Source: Gammaproteobacteria bacterium (GTDB lineage: Bacteria; Pseudomonadota; Gammaproteobacteria; Magnimaribacterales; AG-339-G14). From it: a DNA stretch of 64,000 nt. The notes under the pieces are model-generated. The model searched no databases and was not told where the DNA came from. It was given only the letters and a program-made list of their open reading frames with translations. Position numbers and translations under genes: made by a program. Below, in pieces: positions 520 through 34,166 of the stretch (the stretch's first letter is position 1; each line of letters opens with the position of its first letter). The DNA lies in NCBI GenBank assembly GCA_003331625.1, contig QOPF01000006.1, positions 1 through 64,000 on the forward strand, given 5' to 3'.

Positions 520-541
520 CCATAATTTATTGAGATAAATT

Positions 542-573: not shown

Positions 574-593
574 CTCCCTTCAATTTGAGATTT

Positions 594-668
<75 letters not shown>

Positions 669-671
669 GAA

Positions 672-1982: not shown

Positions 1983-2632
1983 TTAAAGAGTTGGTCTGCA
2001 ACGTAGGCATTGGTGAGACGTTCTTGACCAAAGGTAGAAATTGGCCCATGACCAGGGACGAAAGTTATATCTTTTCCTAATGGCCAAAGTTTAGTTCTGA
2101 TAGCATCTAATAAATCTTGAGTATTACCTCTTGGTAAATCAGTTCTGCCTATCGAACCTTGAAAAAGTACATCACCGACAATAGCGAGTTTTGATTCTGG
2201 ATGGTGGAACACTATGTGACCAGGCGTATGGCCAGGACAATGATATACATCTAATTTTTCACCATCGAGTTCTATTTGATCACCATCATCTAACCAACGA
2301 TTGGGCAAAAAGTTTTTGGCGGTATCCATTCCATAACGTTTGCCTTGTTCCTCTAAGGCTTCAATAAGAAAAGTGTCATCCCGATGTGGACCTTCAATTT
2401 CGACGCTATATTTCTCTGCTAATTCGCTGGCACCACCAGCATGGTCCAAATGACCATGAGTAATAAAAATTTTTGAAAGTATTAATCCTTGTTCTTTAAT
2501 AAAACCTTCTATCGAGGGAAGATCTCCACCAGGGTCGGTGACGGCAGCAATTTTTGATGACTCTTTCCAAATAACACAGGAATTTTGCTGCAAAGGAGTC
2601 ACAGGAATGATTGCTGCTTTAAGTGTAGCCAT
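1979..2632 (-). CDS. gloC: GloC/YcbL-type metallo-beta-lactamase-fold hydrolase (type II glyoxalase)
   Basis: This 217-residue cytoplasmic enzyme matches E. coli GloC (YcbL) in length and motif order: an N-terminal VTPLQQNSCVIW, the dinuclear metal motif THGHLDH, HCPGHTPGH, GDVLFQGSIGRTDLPRG and the closing PGHGP. The family hydrolyses S-lactoylglutathione and related thioesters. It is first in a two-gene minus-strand unit with the M20 amidohydrolase, its stop overlapping that gene's ATG. A 30-base gap separates its start from the divergent epoxide-hydrolase-like gene. Confidence 0.88.
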   Translation of the reverse strand: MATLKAAIIPVTPLQQNSCVIWKESSKIAAVTDPGGDLPSIEGFIKEQGLILSKIFITHGHLDHAGGASELAEKYSVEIEGPHRDDTFLIEALEEQGKRYGMDTAKNFLPNRWLDDGDQIELDGEKLDVYHCPGHTPGHIVFHHPESKLAIVGDVLFQGSIGRTDLPRGNTQDLLDAIRTKLWPLGKDITFVPGHGPISTFGQERLTNAYVADQLFK

Positions 2633-2662
2633 TGATATAAAAACCTGACATTATTATAACCC

Positions 2663-3649
2663 ATGAATTTTGAACTTTTAGACGGGAATAACTTAAAAAT
2701 AAGATCAGTAGTCGAAGGCGAAGGACCATTGGTTGTTTTAGTTCATGGCTGGCCTGAAAGCTGGTATAGCTGGCGACATCAAATTAAACCCCTTACAAAA
2801 GCAGGTTTTAAAGTTGCTGCAATAGATGTCAGAGGTTATGGCGGTTCTGATAAACCCCATGAAATCTCCGCTTACTCTCTAAAAAGTATTGCAGCTGATA
2901 TTGCCGCCGTAATAGATTCTCTTGGCTACAAAGAGGCCTATCTCTTTGGCCACGATTGGGGCGGACCAATTGTTTGGACCACGGGCTTACTTTATCCTGA
3001 CACCATTAGAGCAGTTGGTGCCTTATCCGTTCCTTACACGCCCATTGGAGAAAAATCTCTTATTCAGTTATTTCGTGAGCTTTATAAAGATAAGTTTTTT
3101 TATCAGTTATACATTCAAGAAGAAGGCAAGGCTGAAGCTGAATTTGAAGCCGATGTAAAAACTGCTTTGGAGAAGACCTACTTCAGTGGTGATGGAAGAG
3201 GGATGCAGTTTATGATGGAAAACATTGGTAATCCTGCTTATCAAAAAAAACCAGACTCTACAATGCTCGAAAACTCACCTGTTTTTGACGCCTATCCTGC
3301 TTGGCTATCTCAAGACGAAATGAATTATTTTGTCAGCGAATTTGAGCAAAGTGGTTTTCGCGGACCTTTCAATAGGTACCGAGCTCAAGATATTGATTTT
3401 GAGGAATTACAGGAATTTAAAAATGTATCCTATCCGTTACCAGCTTGTTTCATCACCGGAACGTTAGACCCTGTTAATTTTTTTGCACGTGATGAAAAAG
3501 CATCTTCTGAAGATATTTTGACAGCTTTCACGAAAAACTATGATGATTTAAGAAAAGTAGAAGTTATTGATGGCATTGGTCATTGGACCCAACAAGAAAG
3601 TCCAGAATTAGTAACCAACTACATGACTGATTTTTTAACAAACCTCTAA
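2663..3649 (+). CDS. Alpha/beta hydrolase, epoxide hydrolase-like
   Basis: A 328-residue soluble alpha/beta-fold hydrolase. The oxyanion-hole motif HGWPESWYSWRHQ (about 28-40) and nucleophile motif GHDWGG with Asp98 are those of epoxide hydrolases and haloalkane dehalogenases. The acid lies in the GTLDPVNFF region and the catalytic His is near 307 in GIGHWTQQE. An aspartate rather than serine nucleophile argues against an esterase. The cap domain covers about 130-240. It has no signal peptide and is followed after 10 bases by the VOC gene. Epoxide hydrolase is favoured by the HGWPE(S)W motif; the substrate is unknown. Confidence 0.85.
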   Translation: MNFELLDGNNLKIRSVVEGEGPLVVLVHGWPESWYSWRHQIKPLTKAGFKVAAIDVRGYGGSDKPHEISAYSLKSIAADIAAVIDSLGYKEAYLFGHDWGGPIVWTTGLLYPDTIRAVGALSVPYTPIGEKSLIQLFRELYKDKFFYQLYIQEEGKAEAEFEADVKTALEKTYFSGDGRGMQFMMENIGNPAYQKKPDSTMLENSPVFDAYPAWLSQDEMNYFVSEFEQSGFRGPFNRYRAQDIDFEELQEFKNVSYPLPACFITGTLDPVNFFARDEKASSEDILTAFTKNYDDLRKVEVIDGIGHWTQQESPELVTNYMTDFLTNL

Positions 3650-3659
3650 GGAGAAAACT

Positions 3660-4043
3660 ATGACCGCAAAATTACTAGGTTATTCAACGATTGGAACAAA
3701 TAATAAAGAAGCCGCAGAAACATTTTACGATGGGCTGCTTGCACAAATGAATGCAATTAAGTTTCCAGCTAATGACCGTATTACTATGTGGATGTCTGAG
3801 GATGGAGGTTCGGTTATTTTAGCCATCGCAATTCCCTATGATGGTGGTACTGCAGCACATGGAAATGGCACCATGAAAGCCATTGCTTTAGGCTCTCATG
3901 AAGAAGTGAATCAAATGTATGCCAAAGCTATTGAGTTAGGTGCTACCGATGATGGTGAACCAGGTCCGCGTGCTGGAACTTTTTACGGAGCATACGTTTA
4001 CGATTTAGATGGCAATAAGCTTTGCTTTTTTAACTTTAGTTAA
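3660..4043 (+). CDS. VOC (glyoxalase/bleomycin-resistance) family protein
   Basis: A 127-residue single-domain vicinal-oxygen-chelate protein. The N-terminal GYSTIGTNNKEAAETFYDGLLA and the C-terminal YGAYVYDLDGNKLCFFN are the usual first and last strands of the two beta-alpha-beta-beta-beta units. An AAHGNGTMKAIALG strand in the middle carries the usual metal-site His region. A good AGGAG precedes the ATG. It follows the epoxide-hydrolase-like gene by 10 bases, and its stop overlaps that of the convergent cystathionine gamma-lyase-type gene by four bases. No specific reaction can be assigned. Confidence 0.8.
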   Translation: MTAKLLGYSTIGTNNKEAAETFYDGLLAQMNAIKFPANDRITMWMSEDGGSVILAIAIPYDGGTAAHGNGTMKAIALGSHEEVNQMYAKAIELGATDDGEPGPRAGTFYGAYVYDLDGNKLCFFNFS

Positions 4044-5203
4044 ACTAAAGCTTGCTCTATATCTTCTACTAGATCATCTAGGGATTCCAAACCAACAGAT
4101 AGCCTAACGAGACCATCGGTAATACCGATGGCTTCTCTACGTTCTTTAGGTAATGAGGCATGAGTCATAAGCGCAGGGTGCTCGATTAAGCTTTCGACAC
4201 CGCCCAAACTTTCAGCTAAAGCAAAGATTCTTGTTTTTTCTAGAAAGGTTGTTGATTTTTCAAGACCGCCTTTGATGTTCATAGATATGATTCCCCCGAA
4301 GCCATTCATTTGCTTTGAAGCCAATGCATGTTGTGGATGAGATTCTAAGCCAGGATAAATTATTGCTTCGATATCTTTGTGACCTTCAAAGTGCTTCGCT
4401 AAGGCTAAAGCATTAGCATTGTGTCGTTCCATACGAATAGCCAAAGTTTTCAAACTTCTCAATATTAAATAACTATCAAATGCCCCTGTAATAGGCCCTA
4501 GAGAATTAACAATGTTAGCCATTCGAGCAATTAAAGTTTCATCTTTCTTGCCAATTACCAAAGCGCCAGCAATTAAATCTGAATGACCGCCTAAATATTT
4601 AGTCGCGGAATGCAAAACGATATCAATTCCATGGTTTAACGGTTGTTGTACATAAGGAGAAGCAAAAGTGTTATCACAAACACTCAAGATATCTTCTGCC
4701 TTAGCAAAATCAGCAATGGCGGATAAATCTACAACTCTCAACAAAGGATTGGTAGGTGTTTCAACGAAAATCATTTTTGTCTTGTCAGTTTTTGCAGCAA
4801 CGACATTATCCATATTTGTCATATCGACGTATGTAACTTCAATTCCTTGAGAAATAGTTTTTATTTCATTAAACAATCGAACTGTCCCACCATAAAGATC
4901 ATTCATAGCAATTACATGATCGCCAGGAGAAAGTAACTCAACACAGGCCGAGATTGCCGCAACACCTGAAGAAAAGCCAAAGCCTGCAACGCCATTTTCT
5001 AGGCTAGCGATGCACTCTTCAAAAGCTTTACGAGTTGGATTAGCTGATCTGGAATAATCATAACCCTTATGCACTCCAGGACTTTCTTGCTCATAAGTAG
5101 AAGAGGTGTAAATGGGCATCATCACTGCACCTGTAGCTGGATCAGCTTTTTGTCCAGCGTGAATTGCTCTTGTTTCAAAGCCTTGTTTATTTTTTTTACT
5201 CAT
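4040..5203 (-). CDS. Trans-sulfuration PLP enzyme (cystathionine gamma-lyase/synthase type)
   Basis: A 387-residue Cys/Met-metabolism PLP enzyme. The family opening FETRAIHAGQ, the YSRSANPTR phosphate/substrate loop, VETPTNPLLRVVDL, and the cofactor lysine K202 in SATKYLGGHSD are visible. It directly follows a cystathionine beta-synthase-like gene (four-base overlap), the classical reverse-transsulfuration pair that converts homocysteine and serine to cysteine through cystathionine. That context favours gamma-lyase over MetB-type gamma-synthase, though sequence alone does not fully separate them. Confidence 0.85.
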   Translation of the reverse strand: MSKKNKQGFETRAIHAGQKADPATGAVMMPIYTSSTYEQESPGVHKGYDYSRSANPTRKAFEECIASLENGVAGFGFSSGVAAISACVELLSPGDHVIAMNDLYGGTVRLFNEIKTISQGIEVTYVDMTNMDNVVAAKTDKTKMIFVETPTNPLLRVVDLSAIADFAKAEDILSVCDNTFASPYVQQPLNHGIDIVLHSATKYLGGHSDLIAGALVIGKKDETLIARMANIVNSLGPITGAFDSYLILRSLKTLAIRMERHNANALALAKHFEGHKDIEAIIYPGLESHPQHALASKQMNGFGGIISMNIKGGLEKSTTFLEKTRIFALAESLGGVESLIEHPALMTHASLPKERREAIGITDGLVRLSVGLESLDDLVEDIEQALV

Positions 5204-6186
5204 GAATTTCTATCTATTAAATTATTTTCTTCCAACCAAGTTTTATTAAAAGCCTTGGATAAATATTTGTTTCCGGTATCACAAATTAATGTTACTACTT
5301 TTTTTGGTTCTGTTTGTTTCTGACACCAAGTTATTGCAGCATCAACCAATGTACCGCATGAGGATCCTGCCAAAATGCCTTCTTTCCTGAGAAGTTCATC
5401 CACTCTCGCAAAAGCAGCTTTATCTGAAACATAAATACCCTCATCAATGACACTCAAGTCAAGGTTGTCAGGAATGTAATCTTCGCCAATTCCCTCAACA
5501 AACCAAGAACCGCCATCATATTTAAAACTACCTGTATTTACAGCATCTGCAACTACAGAGCCAATAGGATCAGCAACTACGATTTGAATATCTTTATTCT
5601 TACTTTTTAAATAGCGACCGGTGCCGCTAATGGTTCCGCCAGTACCAACGCCTGCAACAAAAGCATCAATATCACCTGCCATTTGCGACCAAATTTCAGG
5701 ACCGGTGGTTGTTTCATGGATTAAAGGATTAGCCGGATTACTAAATTGATCAGCAAAAAAAGCTCCTGGAGTTTTCTTAACTATAGCTGCTGCCAGTTCT
5801 TGATAATGTTCAGGATGACCTTTTTCTACATCGGATCGAGTGAAAACAATTTCCACACCCATAGCTTCCAAATGCATCACTTTTTCTCGACTCATTTTGT
5901 CAGGAATGACTAAAATTAATTGATAGCCTTTTAATTTTGCTGCCAGCGCCAATCCCAGACCAGTATTACCGGCAGTGCATTCAACAATGACACCTCCCGA
6001 TTTCAATGCTCCAGATTTTTCAGCCTCATCAATTATTTTCAAACCAACACGATCTTTTATGGATCCGCCTGGATTGAGGTTTTCTAACTTAACGAAAAGC
6101 TCACAAGGACCAGTATCAATATTATTTATTTTTACAATTGGCGTGTTGCCAACCATTTCCAAAAGATTATTAAAACTAGTCTTCAT
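5200..6186 (-). CDS. Cystathionine beta-synthase / cysteine synthase family enzyme
   Basis: A 328-residue PLP enzyme of fold type II. Residues include GNTPIVKI at the N-terminus, cofactor lysine K44 in GGSIKDR, the phosphate loop GTGGTISGTG and the C-terminal AGSSCGT. The stretch EGIGEDYIPDNLDLS resembles cystathionine beta-synthases more than CysK. It has neither heme domain nor C-terminal CBS pair. The ATG at 6184-6186 was chosen because family homology begins there; an upstream in-frame ATG at 6229-6231 would add 15 lysine-rich residues overlapping another small gene. It pairs with the gamma-lyase-type gene downstream (four-base overlap). Confidence 0.82.
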   Translation of the reverse strand: MKTSFNNLLEMVGNTPIVKINNIDTGPCELFVKLENLNPGGSIKDRVGLKIIDEAEKSGALKSGGVIVECTAGNTGLGLALAAKLKGYQLILVIPDKMSREKVMHLEAMGVEIVFTRSDVEKGHPEHYQELAAAIVKKTPGAFFADQFSNPANPLIHETTTGPEIWSQMAGDIDAFVAGVGTGGTISGTGRYLKSKNKDIQIVVADPIGSVVADAVNTGSFKYDGGSWFVEGIGEDYIPDNLDLSVIDEGIYVSDKAAFARVDELLRKEGILAGSSCGTLVDAAITWCQKQTEPKKVVTLICDTGNKYLSKAFNKTWLEENNLIDRNS

Positions 6187-6310
6187 TTTTCTTTTTTTTT
6201 CTATCGTATTTAGTTTTATCCTTAAAAACACTTGCGCGATTAAACTTTCCTGCGTTCTTAGCTACAGGATTTAATTTACTTTTCTTTCGCTTATCTCTTT
6301 CTTTTGACAC
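6176..6310 (-). CDS. Small lysine-rich basic protein (44 aa)
   Basis: A 44-codon frame begins at GTG (6308-6310) and stops at TAG (6176-6178), overlapping the start of the beta-synthase gene by 11 bases. The product is extremely basic and contains SKLNPVAKNAGKFNRASVF. From memory this resembles small conserved proteins of Gammaproteobacteria with an NPVAK...FNRA core (DUF7230-like), but that recall is not verified. No Shine-Dalgarno is visible before the GTG, and the frame stays open upstream without ATG. It fills the otherwise empty gap between the DsbA/HCCA-like gene and the beta-synthase gene. Confidence 0.5.
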   Translation of the reverse strand: MSKERDKRKKSKLNPVAKNAGKFNRASVFKDKTKYDRKKKKNED

Positions 6311-6392
6311 TAAAAAATAGTTTTTATTCGATAAATCTAGAGATATTTTATCATCCGTAATCTTTGATAAGGTTTTTTATTTTTTTAATAAA

Positions 6393-7736
6393 TCATCCCA
6401 ATCTTAGGTTTATTTCTTCCTTGATTAACCACATTCGGTCTTGTCCCCATGCATAAAAGGGATCAGAGCCATCCATGTTTGTTATTTTAAAACTCGGCAC
6501 ACCCCAACAGTTTCCAGCATACATATCGTTAACGTTATCATTTAAAACTTTTTTCCATTTAGACGTGTTTAATTCTTTTTTTATCTCCGACCAATCTAAT
6601 CCTAATTGGTTAATTAAATTTTCTAGGTAAGCTTCGTCACCGATATTAATTCCATCTTGAAAAGATGCCTTTAAAAGCTCGTCAATATAATCAAAACCTT
6701 TGCCAAGCGAATCAATAATAGGAAACAATGAGTAAGCTTTTCTCGCAGGTTTTCCAATAGGCGAATAAATTTCTTTCATTTCGTAGTTGTGTTTGCGTCC
6801 TTCCCGAGCCGCATCGGAAATTATGTATTTAGCTTTGAAATCAGGAATAACCATCATTCGCATCAACATCGGTAATACCGGCCTTGTAATAAGATTAATT
6901 GGATAATTTTCTTCAAGCTCTCTAACTCTTTTTGCACTTACAAAAGTATAAGGACTATTTAAGGAAGGGTAATAAGTAAGATTAAGTTTATTTTCTGCAA
7001 CTAAAGAATCCGGAGCTTTGGTGTTGATTAAACAAACTGGCTCGTTACTGGAGGATTTATTTGCTCCCAATTCTGTCAAACGTTCCTCTAAATAGTGCAA
7101 TCGATCAACGCCCCAATATATTTCTTTTTCATAATAAAACGCTGAGCCAAAGTAATAGTCGCAATTATTTCTGATTTCATTTCCCGCTTGAAGTTTTTTT
7201 GTAATTTCTTCATTAGAAGATTTGTATTTATCAGCTAACTCATCAAGTCTCGAGACATTACCTTCCCATAATGCAGAACTTACTTCTTTGGCTATTTCTC
7301 CAAAATTTTCCTCATCTACGGAGCATAAAATACCATTTGCCTTGGTTATTAAATCTCCAGTAGGATAATTTTTTTCGGAAAAATTAATGTTGTAGAAGGG
7401 AGCAATTCTTTTTACATCTTCCAGACAGTAATCTGAATAAAGCGTTGGTTCATGCAAAGCAGCGGGATTTTCTTCGCCCACCAAGATAGGCTTGAAAACC
7501 ACATCGAAAGAATCTCTAAATTTATCAATGTATTGAATGGTTAGATGAGAGTAGGGATCATCTACTTTATGAAAATACAAAACCTCATGAGGCCTGTTCT
7601 CTGCTTGTCTTTTGACCTCAGCCTTTTCTCTAATTGATTTAAAATTATCAAAGCTAGAAAACATGTTCATCGCTTTGTTTCGGAGTTTGTAGGCGAAAGT
7701 TCTTCTTGCTAGAACACTCCTAATGAATTTAATCAT
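6393..7736 (-). CDS. Tandem DsbA/2-hydroxychromene-2-carboxylate isomerase-like protein
   Basis: A 447-residue protein with two thioredoxin-fold units of the DsbA/HCCA-isomerase type. The first begins at EVLYFHKVDDPYSHLT (about 52-67); the second begins near DYYFGSAFYYEKEIYWGVDRL. The C-terminal GNCWGVPSFKI...YAWGQDRMWL is the characteristic end of HCCA isomerases (cis-Pro loop, then a G-Q-D-R-hydrophobic motif). There is no CxxC pair, so thiol-disulfide oxidation is unlikely; glutathione-dependent isomerisation is the family model. The ATG overlaps the stop of the acyl-CoA synthetase gene by one base, so a role with a CoA-activated or aromatic substrate is plausible but inferred. Confidence 0.72.
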   Translation of the reverse strand: MIKFIRSVLARRTFAYKLRNKAMNMFSSFDNFKSIREKAEVKRQAENRPHEVLYFHKVDDPYSHLTIQYIDKFRDSFDVVFKPILVGEENPAALHEPTLYSDYCLEDVKRIAPFYNINFSEKNYPTGDLITKANGILCSVDEENFGEIAKEVSSALWEGNVSRLDELADKYKSSNEEITKKLQAGNEIRNNCDYYFGSAFYYEKEIYWGVDRLHYLEERLTELGANKSSSNEPVCLINTKAPDSLVAENKLNLTYYPSLNSPYTFVSAKRVRELEENYPINLITRPVLPMLMRMMVIPDFKAKYIISDAAREGRKHNYEMKEIYSPIGKPARKAYSLFPIIDSLGKGFDYIDELLKASFQDGINIGDEAYLENLINQLGLDWSEIKKELNTSKWKKVLNDNVNDMYAGNCWGVPSFKITNMDGSDPFYAWGQDRMWLIKEEINLRLG

Positions 7737-23268: not shown

Positions 23269-23970
23269 ATGAAAAAGATTCTAGTTATTGAGGATGAAGA
23301 AGACTTAAATCAAACTTTGAGTTTTAATTTGGAAAACGAAGGCTATAAAGTTACGTCTGCTTTGAAAGGTTCAGAGGCCTTAAAAATTCTAAAAGATTCC
23401 GATACTCCAGATTTAGTCATTCTTGATTTGATGTTACCTGACATATCCGGTTTGGATATTTGTCGACACATTCGTTCTGAAAAAGAGTTGAAAAATATAA
23501 GTGTAATTATGGTGACTGCAAAAGGAGAAGAAGTAGATAGGGTAGTTGGATTTGAGCTGGGTGCAGATGATTACATAGTTAAGCCTTATAGCATTAGAGA
23601 ACTCATGTTGAGAGTTCAAGCCCAGTTAAGGAGAAACAGCAGCGATTCAGATAAAAATAAAGCTACTGATGATGAAGACAATATTACTTTTAAAGAGCTA
23701 TTGATTGATATCAATAGACATAAAGTATTTCTTGGAGATGAAAAAATTGATCTTACCGCAAAGGAATTTACTCTCTTGAAACATCTTTTAACAAGGATAG
23801 ATAAGGTGCAAACCAGAGACAACTTACTCGATAAAGTTTGGGGATACGATAGTTCTGTCACCACAAGGACTGTTGATACGCATGTCAAGAGATTGAGATC
23901 TAAGTTAGGAAAATACGGAGCCAACATAGAAACCATTAGAGGTGTTGGATATATTTTCAACAAAGCTTAA
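23269..23970 (+). CDS. phoB: Phosphate regulon response regulator PhoB
   Basis: A 233-residue OmpR/PhoB-family regulator. The receiver domain (1-120) has the acidic pocket EDEED, phosphoacceptor D53 in ILDLMLPD, and the Lys in VKPYSIREL. The C-terminal winged helix (about 135-232) carries LTAKEFTLLKHL and TRTVDTHVKRLRSKLG...IRGVGYIF. KPYS and the RGVGY ending are typical of PhoB. It starts seven bases after ugd and is followed nine bases later by the histidine kinase, so it appears to be a distal gene of the plcP operon. Confidence 0.92.
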   Translation: MKKILVIEDEEDLNQTLSFNLENEGYKVTSALKGSEALKILKDSDTPDLVILDLMLPDISGLDICRHIRSEKELKNISVIMVTAKGEEVDRVVGFELGADDYIVKPYSIRELMLRVQAQLRRNSSDSDKNKATDDEDNITFKELLIDINRHKVFLGDEKIDLTAKEFTLLKHLLTRIDKVQTRDNLLDKVWGYDSSVTTRTVDTHVKRLRSKLGKYGANIETIRGVGYIFNKA

Positions 23971-23979
23971 TATAGCTTA

Positions 23980-25326
23980 GTGAAACTTTCTTTAAAAATT
24001 AGGATTTTTCTTTTGACCGTCTTCACGGTCATGGTTTCTTTTTTAATTAGCGCAGTTATTTTAAAAGGCGATGCATTCTTTAACGAGAATATTGTTATTG
24101 GAATTATTATGTTTGTGATTCTTATTTTCGCTTCAGGTACCACGCTTTACAGATTTTTACGAGACGTTGTAATCAAAGCTGCAAGAATTATTTCAGGTCC
24201 TAATAATACTGAAGAAATGGATTCTGAATCAGCCTTCGAATCATTGAGGACCTCTTCGGCTGAGGTTCAAAATGAACTATTAAATTATTCAAAACAATTA
24301 TCCTTTGTTAGTAACTTACTTTCTAGAATGGGACAGGGTGTTATTTTAGTAAATAAAAATTTGAATGTTATTTATTTCAATCAAACTATTTCTAAAGATT
24401 TTTTTCCTGAATTAAAAGTTGGTGATGACTTATTCAAAAATATTTCTTATCCCGCATTTAAAAAATTTATAAGAAAAGCTTGGGAAAAAGATGAATATAC
24501 AAAAGAAATCTCAGGTCCTAGAACAATCAAGACTGTATATTTAGTGAGCTCACAAAAATTTTCTACCGACGATCAACTCCTGATTGTTTTCAATGATATT
24601 TCAAAATTAAAAAACCTTGAAAAGATGCGTGGAGACTTTATTGGTAACGTCTCACATGAACTAAGAACGCCAATAAGCGTTATAAAGGCCAATTCAGAAA
24701 CTTTACTTACAAGCAAGTTAATTAAAGATAAGAATGCAATTGAGTTTACCAAGGCAATTCAATCTCAAAGCGAGAGAATGGCGACTATAGTTAATGAATT
24801 GCTTTCTATTTCTAGCATGGAATCTGGTGATTATCCTATCTCTTTAGATAAACTAAACATAAAAAATATTGTTGATTCCGCTTTGCAAGAATTAAAGCCT
24901 ATGACCAATAAAAACAGTATCACTTTAGTGAACAATCTTGATCAGTGCACTAATATCATTGGCGATGAATCTGCAATGAAAATAATCATTTCCAATTATA
25001 TTAATAACGCGATAAAACACAGCCCTAAGAAATCTTCAATAGTTATTGATTGTAAAAAAGTAGATAAAGACTTTTGTAGAATAATGGTAAAAGATAATGG
25101 TTCAGGAATTGCTAAAAAATATAGAGAAAGAGTTTTTGAAAGATTCTTTAGAGTAGATAAGGGCAGATCTAAAAAAGTTGGTGGTACTGGACTAGGATTG
25201 TCGATATCAAAAAACCTTGCATTAATGATGGGTTATTCTGTTGGGGTAGATTCAAATACTCCAAAGGGATCGATATTTTACATAGATGTCAAAACGGATC
25301 ACGAAGCTTCCCAGGAAGTTGCTTGA
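23980..25326 (+). CDS. phoR: Phosphate regulon sensor histidine kinase PhoR
   Basis: A 448-residue kinase starting at GTG. Two N-terminal membrane helices (about 8-28 and 37-57) with almost no periplasmic loop match PhoR, which senses the PstSCAB state rather than an external ligand. A PAS-like region (about 110-205) precedes the HisKA domain with phosphoacceptor H226 in GNVSHELRTPIS. The ATPase domain has the N box SNYINNAIKH, DNGSGI and GGTGLGLSIS. Its last 28 bases overlap the convergent ppx gene. phoU, which usually couples Pst to PhoR, is not in this window. Confidence 0.9.
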   Translation: MKLSLKIRIFLLTVFTVMVSFLISAVILKGDAFFNENIVIGIIMFVILIFASGTTLYRFLRDVVIKAARIISGPNNTEEMDSESAFESLRTSSAEVQNELLNYSKQLSFVSNLLSRMGQGVILVNKNLNVIYFNQTISKDFFPELKVGDDLFKNISYPAFKKFIRKAWEKDEYTKEISGPRTIKTVYLVSSQKFSTDDQLLIVFNDISKLKNLEKMRGDFIGNVSHELRTPISVIKANSETLLTSKLIKDKNAIEFTKAIQSQSERMATIVNELLSISSMESGDYPISLDKLNIKNIVDSALQELKPMTNKNSITLVNNLDQCTNIIGDESAMKIIISNYINNAIKHSPKKSSIVIDCKKVDKDFCRIMVKDNGSGIAKKYRERVFERFFRVDKGRSKKVGGTGLGLSISKNLALMMGYSVGVDSNTPKGSIFYIDVKTDHEASQEVA

Positions 25327-26192
25327 GCACTTGAAATTTTTTTTTGTACGAAACCATCGCTTATATTCCAGCTTGATGCATAAAAATTCGCTGTTTTAAA
25401 TTTGTTTTGAATAAATTCAAAGATAGATGCAGCATGCTCAATTATATCCGCTCGATCCTCAGGAAAATCGTATTCTTTAATTTTTTTTTCTACCGAAGTG
25501 TTCTTTAGAATTTCTCTTATTTCTTTCATTTCTTTATAAGATAAAAAGTCTGCTTCTTTTTTTGAAACTTGAATAATTAGCTTTGCGTTACCCCCAACTC
25601 CAATAATGTTTTGAATTTTACTTGGGCAAATATCTTTTAAAAACTTTTCAAGTTCAATCCAATTTTTTTTCTTATCTATTTTTTTTAATATTCTTACTCC
25701 TCCAAGTTGAAAAGATTTTATTTTTTCTTCTTTATCATCGGCTAAATATATTTCAGTACTTCCTCCACCAACATCCACAACCATGCTTTGATATTTTGAA
25801 TGATTTCTGTAATCAAAGTATTTGAGTAATGTAGCTTCTTCTATGCCGCTTAATATTTCTATTTTTAAACCTAAATCCTTTTTTATTTTTTTAACAATTT
25901 GCTCTTTGTTGGAAAAAGTTCTCATTGCTGATGTAGCAAACAAACCAATTAATTTGGCTTCTTTTTTTTTAGCATGCTTTTTTAGTTTCTTTAAAACCGA
26001 TAAAAATTCTTCATAAGTATTTTCAAGCATTTTCCCTTCATTAAAAGCGTTCGTACCCAATCTTAAGGGGGTTCTTTTAAAAGTATCTAGCTCAAGAAGT
26101 TTTTTATTAATAAGACGATATTGACGATACTTAATAGCATTGGAACCTATGTCAATGCAGGATATTTTTTCTGTAGATTTAGTCATCAGCAA
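25299..26192 (-). CDS. Ppx/GppA family exopolyphosphatase (short form)
   Basis: A 297-residue member of the Ppx/GppA ASKHA fold. CIDIGSNAIKYRQYRL at the N-terminus and VVDVGGGSTEIYLADD in the second half are the two phosphate-binding motifs. It has only the catalytic region of about 300 residues, lacking the extra C-terminal domains of E. coli Ppx (about 510). It directly follows ppk2 (14-base overlap), so release of phosphate from polyphosphate is the likely role, though pppGpp hydrolysis is possible. The exact start among ATGs at 26192 and 26186 is uncertain. Confidence 0.85.
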   Translation of the reverse strand: MLMTKSTEKISCIDIGSNAIKYRQYRLINKKLLELDTFKRTPLRLGTNAFNEGKMLENTYEEFLSVLKKLKKHAKKKEAKLIGLFATSAMRTFSNKEQIVKKIKKDLGLKIEILSGIEEATLLKYFDYRNHSKYQSMVVDVGGGSTEIYLADDKEEKIKSFQLGGVRILKKIDKKKNWIELEKFLKDICPSKIQNIIGVGGNAKLIIQVSKKEADFLSYKEMKEIREILKNTSVEKKIKEYDFPEDRADIIEHAASIFEFIQNKFKTANFYASSWNISDGFVQKKISSAQATSWEAS

Positions 26193-27027
26193 AAACTCTT
26201 AAAGTTTTGTACTGTTGATAAGATAAATTTTCAAATAGAACTTTATTGATTTTGACTTTGTAGTTATTCAAGCCTTCAGACCATATCTTGGGTTTCGGCA
26301 AATTTTTGTCTGGATAATCGAATGAATTAAGGATAAATCTCAAAGCGCTTAATATCGCAACTTTTTTATTGTTGGCGTTCAACACTATCCAAGGTGCTTC
26401 TTCATAGGAAGTTCTTTTAAACATTTGCTCTTTATAAAGAGTGAAGGCGTCCCATTTATCAAGCATCTTGAAATCATTTTCACTGATTTTCCAGTAAACC
26501 AAAGGGCTAGTCGCTCTTTTATCTATTCTTCTTTGTTGGGTATTTTTTTCAATTGACAAATAAAATTTAAAAAACTCAACTCCGTCTTCAATCTGCTTTT
26601 GTTCCCAAGGAATAACATTTTTCATGAAGTAGGTATATTGACGTTTGGAACAATATCCCATGGTTGCCTCTACTAATGCTCTGGTGTACCAAGATCTATC
26701 AAAAAAAACGAGTTCACCAGTTTTTGGTAAATGCTTTTCATACCTTTTAAACCATTTTTTTGACTCTTTTTCAGTTGGCTTGCCTAAAGCAACAAGTTTA
26801 CAGTGATTGGGAATCAGGTATTTAGATAAAACAGAAATACTTCCGGTTTTTCCAGCCGTATCTCTGCCTTCAAAAACAAGGGCAACTTTTCTTTTCGATT
26901 TAATAATCCAATTTTGCAGTTTTAACAATTCAATCAAGAGTTTTCTTTTTTCTTTCTCATACAACTCTTCATTGATTCTTTTGTAATCAGGAATATCAAA
27001 CTCAATCATTAAATGATTGTAATTCAA
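26179..27027 (-). CDS. ppk2: Polyphosphate kinase 2 (PPK2)
   Basis: A 282-residue PPK2-family kinase. Walker A is EGRDTAGKTG (about 53-62, Thr and Thr replacing the more usual Ala and Gly), Walker B is FFDRSWYTRALVE with D110, and the lid has RRIDKRATSPLVYWKISENDF. The family transfers phosphate between polyphosphate and nucleoside di- or monophosphates. It is the first gene of a minus-strand pair with ppx and diverges from the porin, sharing a 130-base control region with Pho-box-like repeats. An ATG six codons in (27009) is an alternative start; neither has a clear Shine-Dalgarno. Confidence 0.9.
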   Translation of the reverse strand: MNYNHLMIEFDIPDYKRINEELYEKEKRKLLIELLKLQNWIIKSKRKVALVFEGRDTAGKTGSISVLSKYLIPNHCKLVALGKPTEKESKKWFKRYEKHLPKTGELVFFDRSWYTRALVEATMGYCSKRQYTYFMKNVIPWEQKQIEDGVEFFKFYLSIEKNTQQRRIDKRATSPLVYWKISENDFKMLDKWDAFTLYKEQMFKRTSYEEAPWIVLNANNKKVAILSALRFILNSFDYPDKNLPKPKIWSEGLNNYKVKINKVLFENLSYQQYKTLRVFADD

Positions 27028-27046: not shown

Positions 27047-27068
27047 TTGTCACTAAGTTGTCACAAAA
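27047..27068 (+). promoter_or_regulatory. Pho-box-like direct repeat before the porin
   Basis: Two adjacent 11-base units, TTGTCACTAAG and TTGTCACAAAA, repeat TTGTCAC with the exact 11-base period and AT-rich spacers of the PhoB binding consensus (CTGTCAT-4-CTGTCAT). A TAATTT at 27078-27083 sits about ten bases downstream, where a PhoB-activated -10 is expected. It lies between ppk2 and the porin and could serve both. PhoB and PhoR are encoded 2-4 kb away. Confidence 0.75.
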
Positions 27069-27157: not shown

Positions 27158-28108
27158 ATGAATAAATTTAAAGCAATATTTGTATCAGCCCTAGTTCTGA
27201 TATCAATGAGTGCAATTTCAGCTCCAAAAGTTTACGGTAAATTAAATCTTGCTGTTAACAATGATGGATCTGACGGTATTAACGAAAAAGAAATAGATCT
27301 TGTGAGTAATGCCTCAAGAATTGGTTTTAAAGGTAAAGTTGACATGAAAAATGGTCTGACTGGAATCTATAAAATTGAATACGAAGTTGACATTACCACT
27401 GACAATACTAAAGGTAAGGCTTTTAACCAAAGAAACTCTTATGTTGGTTTGAAAGGTAACTTTGGTACCTTAAAGTTAGGTACTCACGATACACCTCTTA
27501 AGTTAGCACAGCTTAAAGCGGATCTATTTAACGACCTAAAAGGTGATATTAAAAATATTACTGATGGTGAAAATAGAATAGGTTCTTTCTTCGGATATGA
27601 TTCTCCTGTCTTCGGCGGCGGAGTCAGCATTTCTATTGGTGTTGGTAAAGGTAAAGACGATGAAGTAGCTGGAACTGATTTGGACGGTGAGTTTGGTTCT
27701 AATTTATCAGTATCATTAAAATACGATATCGATGTCATCAAATTTGTGATTGCTACAGAGCAAGGATCTATAAAAGGCTATGACCATAACAGATTAGGTA
27801 TGATGATACCTGCAGGTCCAGTAACTATCGGTCTAATTCATACGACTACTGAATCCACTGTTGGTAATTCAAAAGATTACGATGCAACAACTTTCAGTAT
27901 TGCAGGGAAAGTAGCTGATGGTAAGGGTAAAGTTAAATTTCAGTATGGCACTTCAGACAAGTCAGCTGGCTTAACTCAAACTCAAATTGGTTATGACCAC
28001 AAACTCTTCAAGAAGTTTAAAATCTTTGCATATCACACAATTCGCTCACAAGATGCTGCGAATAGTGATGATGCTCACACTGGTGTAGGTGTAGAGTATA
28101 AATTTTAA
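27158..28108 (+). CDS. Outer-membrane porin (Gram-negative porin family)
   Basis: A 316-residue porin with a 22-residue signal peptide ending SAISA. The mature protein begins KVYGKLNLAVN, has alternating beta-strands throughout, GLTGIYKIEYEVD, NQRNSYVGLKGNFGTLKLGTHDTPL and ends in aromatic Phe (VGVEYKF), the outer-membrane insertion signal. These match the 16-strand trimeric porin family. A strong AAGGAGA precedes the ATG. The Pho-box-like repeat upstream and the neighbouring Pho genes suggest a phosphate-starvation-induced porin analogous to PhoE or OprP, but sequence alone does not establish anion selectivity. Confidence 0.88.
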   Translation: MNKFKAIFVSALVLISMSAISAPKVYGKLNLAVNNDGSDGINEKEIDLVSNASRIGFKGKVDMKNGLTGIYKIEYEVDITTDNTKGKAFNQRNSYVGLKGNFGTLKLGTHDTPLKLAQLKADLFNDLKGDIKNITDGENRIGSFFGYDSPVFGGGVSISIGVGKGKDDEVAGTDLDGEFGSNLSVSLKYDIDVIKFVIATEQGSIKGYDHNRLGMMIPAGPVTIGLIHTTTESTVGNSKDYDATTFSIAGKVADGKGKVKFQYGTSDKSAGLTQTQIGYDHKLFKKFKIFAYHTIRSQDAANSDDAHTGVGVEYKF

Positions 28109-28140: not shown

Positions 28141-28174
28141 AGGGCCTGATCAGAAGTGGTTGGGCCCTTTTTTT
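28141..28174 (+). terminator. Rho-independent terminator after the porin
   Basis: AGGGCC (28141-28146) pairs with GGCCCT (28163-28168) around a 16-base loop, and the downstream arm runs into seven T residues. It lies 32 bases after the porin stop and separates porin transcription from the aquaporin unit. Confidence 0.75.
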
Positions 28175-28275: not shown

Positions 28276-28308
28276 ATGTGTCAATTATGTGACATATATG
28301 TGTCATAA
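28276..28308 (+). promoter_or_regulatory. Triple Pho-box-like repeat before the aquaporin-arsC pair
   Basis: Three consecutive 11-base units, ATGTGTCAATT, ATGTGACATAT and ATGTGTCATAA, share TGTGNCA in the same phase, the hallmark of tandem PhoB half-sites. AATAAT at 28315-28320 is a possible -10. The last two units also form TGACA/TGTCA dyad symmetry, so an ArsR-like operator cannot be excluded, but no arsR is present. The rest of the 261-base gap from 28109 holds the porin terminator and AT-rich sequence with nothing else recognised. Confidence 0.65.
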
Positions 28309-28369
28309 ACAAGGAATAATTGTGAATTTTTATATTAAATTCTAATAAAAAGAATATTTATAAGACTTA

Positions 28370-29014
28370 ATGGAAATAAAAAAATACATTGCTGAATTCT
28401 TAGGAACCTTTTTTTTAGTGGCTACAGTAATAGGTTCTGGGATTATGGGTGAGAATTTATCAGCTGGTAATACAGCTATTGCTTTATTAGGCAATACTAT
28501 AGCTACAGGAGCAATTTTGTATGTAATTATCAAATCTTTTGAGGGTGTATCTGGAGCTCATTTCAACCCAATAGTCTCAATCGTTTTTTATTTCTTAGAT
28601 GAAATCAGTTTAAAAGATTTGATTTCATATTTAATTATTCAGTTTATTGCCGGAATATTGGCAGTTTTTTTAATACATTTTATATTTGAATTAAGTTTGC
28701 TTCAGACTGCATCTAATTCCAGGATTGGTATCTCCAAACTTGTAAGTGAAATAATTGCTTCCTATGGATTGATATTAACTATTTTAATGGTTAGAGAAAG
28801 TAATAAGTCGAATGTTGCTATTGCCGTTGCTTTATTCATTACTGCCGGATATTGGTTTACGTCCTCTACATCATTTGCAAATCCAGCAGTAACTTTAGCA
28901 AGAACATTTACCGATACTTTTACTGGGATTTCTCCAGATTCGCTTGTTTATTTTTTTACAGGTCAGTTGATTGGACTATTTTTAGCTTTATTTACCTATA
29001 AATTATTAAAGTGA
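28370..29014 (+). CDS. MIP family channel (aquaporin/AqpS-like)
   Basis: A 214-residue major-intrinsic-protein channel with six hydrophobic helices. The two half-helix loops are seen as GAHFNPIVS (NPI instead of NPA) and FANPAVTLARTFTD. The opening YIAEFLGTFFLVATVIGSGIM is close to MIP proteins found in arsenic operons. Its stop overlaps the GTG start of an arsenate reductase, the arrangement of Sinorhizobium AqpS, where the channel releases arsenite produced by ArsC. No Shine-Dalgarno is evident. Glycerol or other neutral solute passage is an alternative, but the coupling to arsC favours arsenite. Confidence 0.85.
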   Translation: MEIKKYIAEFLGTFFLVATVIGSGIMGENLSAGNTAIALLGNTIATGAILYVIIKSFEGVSGAHFNPIVSIVFYFLDEISLKDLISYLIIQFIAGILAVFLIHFIFELSLLQTASNSRIGISKLVSEIIASYGLILTILMVRESNKSNVAIAVALFITAGYWFTSSTSFANPAVTLARTFTDTFTGISPDSLVYFFTGQLIGLFLALFTYKLLK

Positions 29015-29430
29015 GAGATTCAGAAAAAATATTGTTTTTGTGTACAGGCAATTCTTGTCGATCTCAAATGGCAGAAGGTATTGCCAATAAATTTACTTGT
29101 TTTAAAGCTTTTTCAGCCGGTACCAGAAAATCTAGTCTAAATCCATATGCTGTAAAAGTTATGTCAGAAATAAAAATTGATATTACTAATCAATTTTCTA
29201 AAACAATTGCTGAATTAGAGGAACAAGATTTTAAATACGTCTTTACTTTGTGCTCAGATGCTGAGGAGAATTGTCCAGTTTTTTTGCAAGGAAAGACCAT
29301 TCACATTGCTTTTGAAGATCCTCCAAAACTTGCAGAAAATATTGAGGATGAAATACAAATTTTAAATATATACAGAAAAGTTCGAGATGAAATTCTTGAC
29401 TGCATCCTTAACATTAGTAATTACATTTAA
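29011..29430 (+). CDS. arsC: Arsenate reductase, thioredoxin-coupled LMW-phosphatase type
   Basis: A 139-residue protein starting at GTG, overlapping the aquaporin stop (GTGA). The P-loop FLCTGNSCRSQMAEG carries nucleophile C11, and TLCSDAEENCP supplies C81 and C88, the redox triad of thioredoxin-coupled ArsC. Those extra cysteines distinguish it from ordinary low-molecular-weight tyrosine phosphatases. It reduces arsenate to arsenite, which the adjacent channel could release. Its placement between a Pho-box-like element and pstS suggests arsenate detoxification is expressed when phosphate uptake is induced; this is inference. Confidence 0.88.
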   Translation: MRDSEKILFLCTGNSCRSQMAEGIANKFTCFKAFSAGTRKSSLNPYAVKVMSEIKIDITNQFSKTIAELEEQDFKYVFTLCSDAEENCPVFLQGKTIHIAFEDPPKLAENIEDEIQILNIYRKVRDEILDCILNISNYI

Positions 29431-29526
29431 TTTTTTTCTAGAAGTTGCTAATGATTTTTCAGCAACGTAACAGATATGCCACAAACAAACACTATTATTA
29501 TTTAGTATTTTTTTGGAGTAAATATA

Positions 29527-30576
29527 ATGAATAAATCTATATCAATAATTGCAGCTTTAATTGTGATGGCATCTATGTCTTTCACTGCAAGCGCTGCAAG
29601 GGATACTATTAAAATTGTTGGATCCTCAACAGTTTATCCTTTCGCTACTGTAGTAGCTGAAAGATTCGGTAAATCCACTAAATTCAATACGCCTGTTATT
29701 GAATCTACTGGTTCTGGCGGTGGTTTGAAACTATTTTGCAAAGGTATTGGGGTTCAACATCCTGATATTACAAATGCATCAAGAAGAATCAAACAAAAAG
29801 AAATTGATCTTTGTGCGAAAGCAGGAATCAAGGACATCATTGAAATTAAAATTGGTTATGATGGAATTGTAGTTGCTAACTCAAAACGAGGTGACACTTT
29901 AAGCTTAACTAAGAGACAAATTTTCTTAGCTTTAGCTCCTGAGATTCCTCACCCTAACGGTGCTAAACAATTGATTAAAAATCCTAACAAAACTTGGCGT
30001 GATGTTGATAAATCTTTACCAAACATTGCAATTGAAGTGTTAGGCCCACCACCAACTTCTGGTACAAGAGATGCTTTTGGAGAACTTGCAATGGAAGGTG
30101 GATGCAAAACTTTCAAATGGCTTAAAGACATCAAAAAAGAAAACAAAAAGCGTTACAAAGCAATTTGTCGCTCTGTTAGAGAAGATGGTCCTTACATTGA
30201 GGCTGGTGAAAACGATAACTTGATTGTGCAAAAATTAAATGCCAATCCAAAAGCAGTAGGAGTATTCGGTTACAGTTTCTTGGTAGAGAATTCGGATTCG
30301 ATTCAAGGTTCTTTTGTTGATGGCGTATTGCCGACTTTTCAAAACATTGCTAATGGTGATTATGGAGTTTCCAGATCTTTATACTTTTATGTGAAAAAAG
30401 ATCACATTGGAACAATTCCAGGAATGAAAGAATATCTGAGAGAATTTACTGCTGACAAAACTATTGGTCAAGATGGATATTTAACTGAAAAGGGACTTAT
30501 TCCAATGCCTAGTAGCGAATACAAACAATTCAGATCAGCAGCTAGAAAACTCACTAATTTTAAAGGACTTAATTAA
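29527..30576 (+). CDS. pstS: Phosphate-binding protein PstS
   Basis: A 349-residue periplasmic solute-binding protein with a signal peptide ending SFTASA. The phosphate-site motifs are IVGSSTVYPFATVVAERF and STGSGGGLKLFCKG; later PPPTSGTRDAFGELA supplies the second phosphate-binding loop. It is the high-affinity receptor for PstCAB. A TTGGAG precedes the ATG. It opens the pst cluster, with a hairpin terminator after it, so it is probably made in excess over the membrane genes. No strong forward Pho box was found in the 96-base upstream gap. Confidence 0.93.
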   Translation: MNKSISIIAALIVMASMSFTASAARDTIKIVGSSTVYPFATVVAERFGKSTKFNTPVIESTGSGGGLKLFCKGIGVQHPDITNASRRIKQKEIDLCAKAGIKDIIEIKIGYDGIVVANSKRGDTLSLTKRQIFLALAPEIPHPNGAKQLIKNPNKTWRDVDKSLPNIAIEVLGPPPTSGTRDAFGELAMEGGCKTFKWLKDIKKENKKRYKAICRSVREDGPYIEAGENDNLIVQKLNANPKAVGVFGYSFLVENSDSIQGSFVDGVLPTFQNIANGDYGVSRSLYFYVKKDHIGTIPGMKEYLREFTADKTIGQDGYLTEKGLIPMPSSEYKQFRSAARKLTNFKGLN

Positions 30577-30666: not shown

Positions 30667-32043
30667 ATGTCATTTTATTTTTTTCTTTTAGTAATAATTA
30701 TTCTTGGCTTAGGATCTTATTACTTTGGAAGATCTAAAGCTTTAGCATTAAAACAAAACGATGTCATACATTCTTTACCAAAATATTATGGTTACTATGC
30801 ACTAGTATGGTTTGCAACTCCCGCCTTAATTATAGTTTCATTATGGCTAATTTTTTCTGAAGGAATTGTAACCAATCAAGTTATCAACACTTTGCCAGAT
30901 AATATTAAAACTCTGCCTACCAATGAACTTACACTAATCCTAAACGATATAAAGAACAAAGCTGCTGGAAATTTGGTAGCTGGAGAATCTTTTGCAGGGT
31001 TTGAATTGGTTGCGGAAAGATATAATTCTTATTCAGAAATAGCTAAGAATATAATAATTTACTCAAGTATTGTACTTGGCCTTATTTCTTTTGTTTATGC
31101 TTATATATCTATTTCTGGAAAGCTACGTGCGAGAAATAGGATTGAAAGCATAGTAAGCAGGATTCTTTTGGTTTCTGCTTCAATTGCGATATTTGCTACT
31201 GCTGGAATATTACTATCTGTTCTATTTGAGGCAATTAGATTTTTTCAAATTATTAGTTTTGACGATTTTATATTTGGACTTACCTGGAGTCCTCAAATGG
31301 CCATTAGAGAAGATCAAGTTGGATCATCTGGTCTCTTTGGAGCAATACCGTTATTCTTGGGAACTGGCTTAATTTCGCTTATCTCTCTTACTGTTGCAGT
31401 GCCTGTTGGATTAATGACGGCCATATATTTATCTGAGTACGCCCCATCAAGAGTGCGTGCAGTCACCAAGCCCATGCTAGAAGTATTATCTGGAATACCA
31501 ACTGTGGTTTATGGCTTTTTTGCTGCAATTACCCTTGCCCCCTTCATTAGAGATTTTGGAGAAACGTTAGGGCTGAACATTGCCTCTGAAAGTGCACTCG
31601 GCGTAGGACTAGTGATGGGTATCATGATCATACCGCTCGTCTCTTCTTTATCAGATGATGTAATTTCGGCAGTACCTCAAGCAATGCGAGAAGGCTCTTA
31701 TGGTTTAGGCGCAACTAAATCAGAGACTATTAAAAGAGTTATTATACCTGCTGCCTTACCTGGGATTGTGGGTGGAATTCTTCTTGCTGCATCAAGGGCA
31801 ATAGGAGAGACCATGATTGTAGTTATGGCAGCGGGTCTTTCAGCAAGGCTATCAATAAACCCGTTAGATGCAGTTACTACTGTAACAGTTCAAATTGTCA
31901 CACTCTTAGTTGGCGATCAAGAATTTGATAGTCCGAAAACTCTCGCAGCCTTTGCATTGGGATTAACCCTTTTTGTTGTTACGCTAATACTTAATTTTTA
32001 TGCTTTAAGGATTGTTAGAAAATATAGGGAACAATATGAATAA
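30667..32043 (+). CDS. pstC: Phosphate ABC transporter permease PstC (long form)
   Basis: A 458-residue permease, about 140 residues longer than E. coli PstC. The C-terminal half is the transporter core: LFGAIPLFLGTGLISLISL, YLSEYAPSRVRAVTKPMLEVLSGIPTVVYGFF, and the EAA-type loop SYGLGATKSETIKRVIIPAALPGIVGG. The N-terminal extension has two or three extra helices and a hydrophilic segment (about 70-120) probably in the periplasm. Such long PstC forms occur in marine Proteobacteria. It partners with PstA and PstB; its stop overlaps pstA by eight bases. Confidence 0.92.
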   Translation: MSFYFFLLVIIILGLGSYYFGRSKALALKQNDVIHSLPKYYGYYALVWFATPALIIVSLWLIFSEGIVTNQVINTLPDNIKTLPTNELTLILNDIKNKAAGNLVAGESFAGFELVAERYNSYSEIAKNIIIYSSIVLGLISFVYAYISISGKLRARNRIESIVSRILLVSASIAIFATAGILLSVLFEAIRFFQIISFDDFIFGLTWSPQMAIREDQVGSSGLFGAIPLFLGTGLISLISLTVAVPVGLMTAIYLSEYAPSRVRAVTKPMLEVLSGIPTVVYGFFAAITLAPFIRDFGETLGLNIASESALGVGLVMGIMIIPLVSSLSDDVISAVPQAMREGSYGLGATKSETIKRVIIPAALPGIVGGILLAASRAIGETMIVVMAAGLSARLSINPLDAVTTVTVQIVTLLVGDQEFDSPKTLAAFALGLTLFVVTLILNFYALRIVRKYREQYE

Positions 32044-33334
32044 CTCACTATCTAACTCGAGTAGTATTACTGAAATAGTAAATAAAGGACTAAAAAAACG
32101 TTACAGATCCGAATTTATGTTTAGACTTTATGGGATCACTTCAATTCTTTTTGCTGCTGCTTTTTTAATTGTATTTTTTAGCAGTATTATTGATAAAGGA
32201 TACAGTGCGTTTACTCAAGGTGAATTAAATATTTCAATTTATCTAGATCCAGAAATAATTGATCCCGATAACACTCGTGATGAAGAAGAAATTAGGTACG
32301 CAAATTACGATAAATTAGTCTTTGAATCGCTTAAAAATTTCTTTCCCAGTGTCTCCTCAAGAAAGGAAAGAAAAGAGCTAAAAGCTTTGGTAAGTAATGG
32401 AACTTCATTAAGAATTCAATCTTTGGTATTAGATGATATGAGTTTAATTGGTAAGACCTTAGATCTTTCAGTCAAGCTAGATAGCGACATAGATATGTTT
32501 TTAAAAGGAAACATAGATATTTCCTTAGATGAATCTCAAAGGAAGATTTCAGATAATCAAGTTAAATGGACAAATGAACTAAAAACAAAAGGGTTGATTA
32601 GTCAAAAATTTAATTCGACCTTATTTTCAGCCGGCGATTCAAGAGAGCCGGAACAAGCTGGAGTCCTAGGTGCTTTGATTGGTTCTTTCTTTATGCTTTT
32701 AATTACCTTTATTGTTGCTTTCCCTTTAGGAGTTGCTGCAGCAATCTATCTAGAAGAGTTTGCTCCAAAAAACAGGTTTACAGATTTTGTTGAAGTGAAT
32801 ATTAATAATTTAGCAGCTGTTCCATCAATTATTTATGGTCTTTTAGGTTTAGCAGTATTTATTAATTTTTTTGGCATGCCAAGATCAGCTCCATTGGTAG
32901 GAGGATTAGTTTTAGCTTTAATGACTTTTCCTGTGATCATCATAGCTTCTAGAGCAGCATTACAATCTGTTCCACCAAGTATTACCGATGCGGCACTTGG
33001 TGTTGGGGCGTCAAAAATTCAAACAATATTTGATCATGTCTTTCCTTTAGCTTTGCCAGGTATGCTTACTGGGTCCATTATTGGCATGGCAAGGGCTTTA
33101 GGCGAATCCGCACCATTATTGATGATTGGTATGGTTGCTTTTGTGGTGGATATTCCAGGCACACCCTTGGATGCATCTGCTGCCTTACCCGTTCAAGTTT
33201 ATCTTTGGGCTGATGCCCCTGAAAGAGGTTTTGTAGAAAGAACTTCAGCGGCAATTTTAGTTTTGCTATTCTTTTTGTTAGTTATGAATTCGACCGCGAT
33301 ATGGTTAAGAAATAAATTTGAAATAAAATGGTAG
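32036..33334 (+). CDS. pstA: Phosphate ABC transporter permease PstA (DUF3333 form)
   Basis: A 432-residue permease. The N-terminal [17 protein letters not shown]... region through about residue 200 corresponds to the DUF3333 extension: a membrane helix then a large periplasmic segment. The core follows with [45 protein letters not shown] and [29 protein letters not shown]. The ATG at 32036 was chosen because AGGGAA sits just upstream and it overlaps pstC by only eight bases. PstB follows seven bases after the stop. Confidence 0.92.
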
Positions 33335-33341
33335 GTTTTTA

Positions 33342-34166
33342 ATGAAAAATAATGAGTTGATTACTCTTCCCGATGATTTTTTAACTATCGGAGACACTAC
33401 AACCCCTAATGAAAAAATAATGGAGTCTCAAGATTGCTGTGTTTTTTACGACGAAGCACAAGCATTGAGAAACATAAATCTTGAAGTCGGCAAGAAAGAA
33501 GTTCTATCGTTAATAGGTCCTTCAGGTTGCGGGAAATCAACTTTCATTAGATGTCTTAATAGACTAAATGACACAATCGATTCAGCAAAAGTAACTGGAA
33601 AGATTACTCTAGAAGGTCAGGACATTTATAACAGCGATATGGATGTTGTTCTATTGAGAGCAAGAGTAGGAATGGTTTTTCAAAAGCCGAATCCTTTTCC
33701 TAAATCCGTTTATGAAAATGTAGCTTACGGACCAAGAATTCATGGTATCAGCGAATCAAAAGCAGATATGGATGAGATAGTTGAAACTTCTTTATCAAGA
33801 GCAGGTTTGTGGGATGAGGTCAAAGATAGATTAAATACTTCAGGTACAGCTTTATCCGGAGGTCAACAACAAAGACTCTGTATTGCAAGAGCAATAGCAG
33901 TTCGACCCGATGTTATCTTAATGGATGAGCCATGTTCAGCTTTAGACCCAATTGCTACAGATAGAATTGAAGACTTGATAAGCGAATTAAAAGAAAACTA
34001 TGCAATTGTAATAGTTACGCATTCTATGAGCCAAGCTTCAAGAGTTTCGCAAAGAGCAGCTTATTTTCATTTAGGTCACTTGGTTGAGACTGATACAACC
34101 GAAAAAATATTTGGCGACCCAGATCACGAACTTACTCAAAACTATATCAAAGGCAGGATAGGATAA
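33342..34166 (+). CDS. pstB: Phosphate ABC transporter ATP-binding protein PstB
   Basis: A 274-residue ABC ATPase. It has Walker [10 protein letters not shown] (59-67), [10 protein letters not shown], the Q-loop [16 protein letters not shown] (the NPFP is diagnostic for PstB), signature [16 protein letters not shown], Walker [14 protein letters not shown], and switch His in VTHSMSQA. The first 27 residues are an unusual acidic lead. It energises phosphate import with PstC and PstA. The expected phoU does not follow; instead its last 25 bases overlap the convergent prepilin peptidase gene. Confidence 0.95.

Follow-up and report, generated by a model that had tools for sequence, protein, structure and literature searches.

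Gene content of the phosphate locus

The window, by which we mean the whole stretch of 64,000 nucleotides analysed, comes from a genome of the SAR86 clade (1.09 Mb, 11 contigs, 92.5% complete), whose closest relatives are named SAR86 records. The locus runs in the order phoB, phoR, ppx/gppA and ppk2 (minus strand), porin, terminator, array, MIP channel, arsC, pstS, pstC, pstA and pstB. Its features are as follows.

23269..23970, plus strand: phoB-like response regulator; NCBIfam PhoB models are among the best matches (E=8e-73 and 2.6e-72, both below cut-offs)
23980..25326, plus strand: phoR-like sensor kinase; PnpS/PhoR models, E=3.7e-80 and 3.6e-72, below cut-offs
25299..26192, minus strand: ppx/gppA-like phosphatase; PF02541, E=1.4e-26
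26179..27027, minus strand: polyphosphate kinase 2 (ppk2); PF03976, E=1.9e-69
27048..27063, plus strand: two-unit Pho box TGTCACTAAGTTGTCA in the promoter of the porin gene, kept upstream of that gene in relatives too
27158..28108, plus strand: Gram-negative porin; PF13609, E=7.4e-30
28141..28168, plus strand: intrinsic terminator downstream of the porin gene, with a 12-bp stem and a T run, -19.5 kcal/mol; hairpin sequence identical in two related loci (L195 and L194)
28279..28305, plus strand: three-unit 11-bp Pho-box-like array TGTCAATTATGTGACATATATGTGTCA, the top three-unit site genome-wide, with homologous arrays before MIP or Pit in further genomes of the family
28331..28336, plus strand: predicted candidate -10 element TATATT; TATATT or TATACT stands here in the aligned genus type A sequences
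28370..29014, plus strand: AqpS-like MIP channel; PF00230 (Pfam MIP), E=9.7e-23, and alignment; best PDB match NIP2-1
29011..29430, plus strand: arsC, a putative LMW-PTP-fold thioredoxin-type arsenate reductase; PF01451, E=1.1e-14; TIGR02691, 114.8 bits, below cut-off; C11/C16/C81/C88
29467-29483, plus strand: degenerate Pho-like box GTAACAGATATGCCACA before pstS, with TATTAT at 29493-29498
29527..30576, plus strand: pstS; TIGR02136, E=8.7e-43, below cut-off; PF12849
30667..32043, plus strand: pstC; TIGR02138, 276 bits, over cut-off
32012..33334, plus strand: pstA; TIGR00974, 219.6 bits, over cut-off
33342..34166, plus strand: pstB; TIGR00972, 388 bits, over cut-off

The original prediction had described a MIP channel gene overlapping arsC in GTGA, with pstS downstream. 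The ORF coordinates bear out the overlap, and the profile matches place not only pstS but the whole pstSCAB set behind arsC.

The arsenate reductase and the channel

The cysteine triad C11/C81/C88 first proposed for ArsC is confirmed by alignment, which places Cys at positions 11, 16, 30, 81, 88 and 131. The P-loop reads CTGNSCRS, at C11, and the best solved relative is the B. subtilis enzyme (1jl3, E=1.4e-23). When aligned to 1jl3 and pI258 ArsC, the protein displays the LMW-PTP fold, the CX5R P-loop and the redox cysteine pair about 70 residues further on that mark the thioredoxin-type reductases. The top NCBIfam model is likewise that of the thioredoxin-coupled enzymes, at a score short of its cut-off of 174.3 bits; since the equivalog cut-offs are not reached, its naming relies on cysteines, alignment and gene context. 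On these grounds the arsC product is a putative thioredoxin-type (pI258/B. subtilis) arsenate reductase.

The channel carries the two NP motifs of the MIP fold, NPI at 66 in loop B and NPA at 171 in loop E (SSTSFANPAVT). The loop-E Arg that is usual in MIPs is replaced by Val throughout the AqpS-like subfamily, as demonstrated by the alignment. Outside SAR86, the same MIP family occurs in ArsR-ArsC-MIP operons, which supports an arsenic role for the channel; the channels of four such operons (L060, L058, L062, L071) share with it the loop E SSTSFANPAVT or its variants ASTSFANPAVT/SSTAFANPAVT, and are about 50-54% identical to it. Additionally, the MIP is the sole transporter of its arsenic locus, ACR3 and ArsB not having been found in the genome. 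From these features of the sequence we infer an AqpS-type channel with arsenite as its substrate.

Pho-like boxes, promoter and terminator

Three 11-base Pho-box-like units had been proposed upstream of the MIP gene, and they are present as TGTCA-n6-TGACA-n6-TGTCA, with a middle unit TGACA that makes the array palindromic as well. The 11-bp repeat units with a TGTCA core expected upstream of a Pho regulon member are thus found here, in agreement with the unit period of the PhoB box definition (PMC4415409). In a pattern search of the 1.09-Mb genome, the array is the best match to three TGTCA units: it has 1 mismatch, whereas the runner-up has 3. A chance origin is rejected on this genome-wide uniqueness, on an expectation of 0.02 per window for the TGWCA form, and on a reversed-pattern control that gave 0 matches in all 37 genomes.

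The strong terminator between the porin and MIP genes implies that MIP needs its own promoter, and read-through from the porin gene into MIP-arsC is rejected for the window on this account. E. coli Pho promoters have about 16 nt between box and -10. Here the distance from the last array unit is 30 nt to TATATT and 14 nt to a non-conserved AATAAT.

Besides the porin box, the genome has just one other exact TGTCAN6TGTCA site. In the degenerate box before pstS, the second unit starts 14 nt before TATTAT. Box and ribosome-binding site are kept in the otherwise diverged arsC-pstS gaps of four relatives (L195, L196, L035, L249), and a further gap (L248) has two TAACA units with TATAAT. The conservation of this box weakens the idea that pstS depends on the MIP promoter alone.

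Search for an arsenic sensor and efflux pumps

The absence of arsR and arsB that had been read from the window extends to the genome, as PF01022, ACR3 and ArsB were all undetected across the 92.5%-complete assembly. The ArsR family (PF01022) was found in 0 of 37 genomes of the SAR86 order, with 14/14 control genomes positive; ACR3 is absent from the SAR86 genomes searched, including the source genome, and ArsB gave no match over the cut-off in SAR86 family f1, the source genome included. The locus hence lacks the ArsR repressor of a classical ars operon, and an ArsR acting from a distant locus is rejected as far as PF01022 and an assembly of this completeness permit. ArsB-like matches are present in another SAR86 family (f2).

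Linkage to phosphate transporters across SAR86

Within SAR86 family f1, MIP and ArsC occur together in 21 of 37 genomes and are both missing from the other 16, never one alone. The two genes are adjacent in all 21 carriers, and in each of these a phosphate transporter is encoded no more than about 6 kb away, Pst in 9 genomes and Pit in 12. PstS was detected in 9/61 genomes and Pit in 47/61, both together never; Pit was not found in the source genome. All nine Pst genomes carry MIP-arsC, for which the chance would be 0.002 if genomes were independent, which they are not.

Gene order follows several types. In type A (the window, G001, G003, G004, G008, G010, G011) the array is followed by MIP-arsC-pstSCAB; one genome has a similar arrangement with two-unit boxes (G036), and another a similar arrangement in which the intact MIP copy has no array in front (G025). 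Type B (G007) has the order porin-MIP-arsC-[array]-small ORF-Pit, and in type B genomes, where the gap of 53-73 nt holds no strong hairpin, read-through from the porin into MIP-arsC is likely. In type C (G016, G021, G022) MIP-arsC lies in an island with a TonB receptor and a phytase, and the array stands before Pit; both these genomes and the g3 genomes have MIP-arsC without an array directly upstream. Seven genomes without MIP and arsC (G002, G006, G009, G012, G014, G015, G018) carry the array between porin and Pit. Specificity of the array for arsenic genes is therefore rejected: because relatives without arsC keep it before Pit, the array is a feature of the transporter slot, behind which MIP-arsC came to stand.

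The channel family beyond SAR86

A survey of aqpS-arsC beside pst genes had been suggested as a check, and it revealed recurrent linkage to phosphate transporters in SAR86 and in other marine phyla. Among 102 MIP loci sorted by their neighbours, 66 have phosphate genes (many of these being near-copies), 15 have ArsR, 21 have neither and 0 have both. The tree of 58 dereplicated MIPs separates, with SH-aLRT 100, a 24-row group (13 ArsR, 1 phosphate) from a 34-row group (24 phosphate, 0 ArsR), and two label changes suffice when unlabelled rows are left out. The phosphate group is comprised of SAR86, Neomarinimicrobia and pelagic Alphaproteobacteria; the neighbours are a Na/Pi cotransporter, PhoU, arsC and MIP in Neomarinimicrobia, and phoR, pst, ppk1, phoU and Pit in the pelagic Alphaproteobacteria.

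Tentatively, and with somewhat less confidence than an even chance would allow, we propose that this phosphate-linked AqpS clade left ArsR control and joined Pho loci, and that in SAR86 recombination carries the [MIP-arsC-pstSCAB] block from genus to genus and puts it in the place of Pit at a conserved PhoB-array slot, which would leave arsenic defence switched by phosphate status alone.

In one Kiloniellales locus (L083, about 247-7630), pstSCAB, arsC, MIP and a phoB-like gene form a single run, with no ArsR detected beside them. It is a probable independent case and the sole phosphate-linked row within the ArsR group of the tree.

A proposed mechanism and its alternatives

The reading that we consider probable, by a fair margin over an even chance, is that MIP and arsC form a minimal module for arsenate detoxification, built into a phosphate-acquisition locus, set by PhoB and without an arsenic sensor. 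Arsenate would enter via the Pst phosphate transporter, ArsC would reduce it to arsenite, and arsenite would exit down its gradient through the AqpS-like channel. PhoB would set transcription at the array before MIP, and the weaker box before pstS is probably a second PhoB site. Such a module would be made whenever the transporter is, and would need no arsenic sensor. PhoB binding of the array and co-expression with the transporter are what its motif and its place lead us to infer.

Arsenate detoxification under Pho control, as the original prediction had it, is therefore upheld in part: it is favoured by an AqpS-like MIP paired with ArsC, by the lack of arsR, arsB and acr3, by a Pho-like array unique in the genome and by the transporter linkage, and it is weakened by the 30 nt between array and TATATT, by the failure to find PhoU, and by other SAR86 lineages that have no array directly before the pair. 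The accompanying idea, that the cell anticipates arsenate influx at low phosphate, is not new, having a precedent in SAR11 (PMC6426599).

An unlikely alternative is that MIP-arsC is expressed constitutively, with PhoR-PhoB permanently active or the array idle, the clustering then reflecting shared function and joint inheritance. PhoU (PF01895) was found in none of the 37 SAR86-order genomes, including that of the window (G000), despite phoB, phoR and Pst or Pit, and 13/14 controls were positive; PhoBR may thus not sense phosphate as in E. coli, and expression could be constitutive. The genomes are moreover streamlined, at about 1.1 Mb, and some lineages carry the pair with no array in front. 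Against this, wherever the sequence of the locus extends to that end, PhoB and PhoR are still present and clustered, the arrays are conserved far above chance, and the arsC of SAR11 responds to phosphate starvation (PMC6426599).

Somewhat less credible still is that some other, symmetric regulator binds the palindromic TGTCA-n6-TGACA-n6-TGTCA, and that Pho control is apparent only. In the aligned arrays of family f1 the middle unit is invariably TGACA and the third TGTC(A/T), the candidate -10 lies at a distance unlike that in E. coli, and the Pit-type array ends about 17-20 nt before the ATG of a small ORF. The 11-bp unit period, however, fits the PhoB box (PMC4415409), other SAR86 families (G043, G040, G039) have up to three TGTCA direct repeats, several of them near phoB, and the porin box is a plain direct repeat.

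We regard it as quite improbable that channel and ArsC serve the uptake or use of methylated arsenicals, as proposed for SAR11, or that the channel carries another small solute: SAR11 HTCC7211, which has an LMWPc_ArsC gene, does gain ATP from DMA/MMA (PMC6426599), the loop-E Val for Arg suggests a selectivity unlike that of classical aquaporins, and some SAR86 families (L239-L241) have MIP by Pit with no ArsC alongside, but the strict MIP-ArsC pairing in family f1 and the ArsR-ArsC-MIP operons elsewhere point to arsenite.

With no arsenic sensor detected in the genome, the arsenic defence of these open-ocean SAR86 bacteria appears to be coupled to the uptake of phosphate and not to arsenic itself.

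Relation to known systems

The Sinorhizobium meliloti ars operon has the order arsR-aqpS-arsC-arsH. As in SAR86, a MIP channel takes the place of ArsB beside arsC, whereas control there is by ArsR and no ArsR-family gene was found in the SAR86 genome. The channel AqpS of S. meliloti is named in PMC4435449.

The closest likeness in content is SAR11 (Pelagibacter 1a.3), in which LMWPc_ArsC and AqpS are the same two genes and again the sole arsenic genes of a streamlined pelagic bacterium; this arsC-aqpS pair makes up all of the arsenic genes, is most frequent in low-phosphate water, and its arsC rises 2.3-fold under phosphate starvation (PMC6426599). SAR11 differs in class and in gene order, with arsC before the aquaporin, whereas in SAR86 the two genes are embedded in a phoBR-pst cluster and preceded by a Pho-like array of their own. 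Agrobacterium 5A, GW4 and others are known to carry islands in which arsenic genes are joined by pst/pho/phn (PMC3834237, PMC7965956), and in Agrobacterium ArsR1 controls pst1/phoB1 and pst1 answers to arsenite (PMC7965956). Arsenic and phosphate genes adjoin there as in SAR86, and are co-regulated in the islands, but the islands centre on aioBA with arsR and ACR3/ArsB, while in SAR86 the direction is reversed and there is no ArsR. In Prochlorococcus, ACR3 is enriched in low-P seas (PMC3686209), which likewise sets arsenic detoxification within low-phosphate adaptation, with a different efflux protein (ACR3). No description of the SAR86 arrangement was found in the literature searched, which was mostly without subscription journals.

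In the ocean, arsenate stress depends on the As/P ratio. Should several abundant uncultured lineages have coupled their defence to the uptake of phosphate, arsenite production in surface water would be expected to vary with phosphate starvation instead of with arsenic, and phosphate stress could be read from arsC-MIP transcripts. The locus would also offer a testable case of a detoxification module that has given up a sensor of its own and adopted the regulator of the very nutrient with which the poison is taken up.

Variants of the locus in other SAR86 genomes

A conserved hydrophobic ORF of 41 aa (MTNIKKTLKNKGLMPGSSKAQEMHFVGFLSACVVLAAVILS and relatives) occurs in L182-L188 and L190-L193 (for example L183:8470-8595); it begins about 17-20 nt past the array, precedes Pit, and is missing where Pst has replaced Pit. 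In two type C loci (L036:8230-11884 and L190:8414-12044), a TonB receptor beside a phytase (PF02333, E=6e-54) lies between arsC and the array-Pit unit, and the two genes form a phytate-scavenging island. The locus L249 (G025:C9, 5400-13963) reads PorinB-MIP-arsC-pstSCAB, and behind it stands a truncated second copy of porin-[array]-MIP, as a single-crossover insertion of the block would leave it, though it may be an assembly join. Finally, in other SAR86 families (L197, L199, L200, L201), long arrays of up to five 11-bp units lie very near the start codon of genes for a TonB receptor or for small proteins (141-169 aa) that look secreted.
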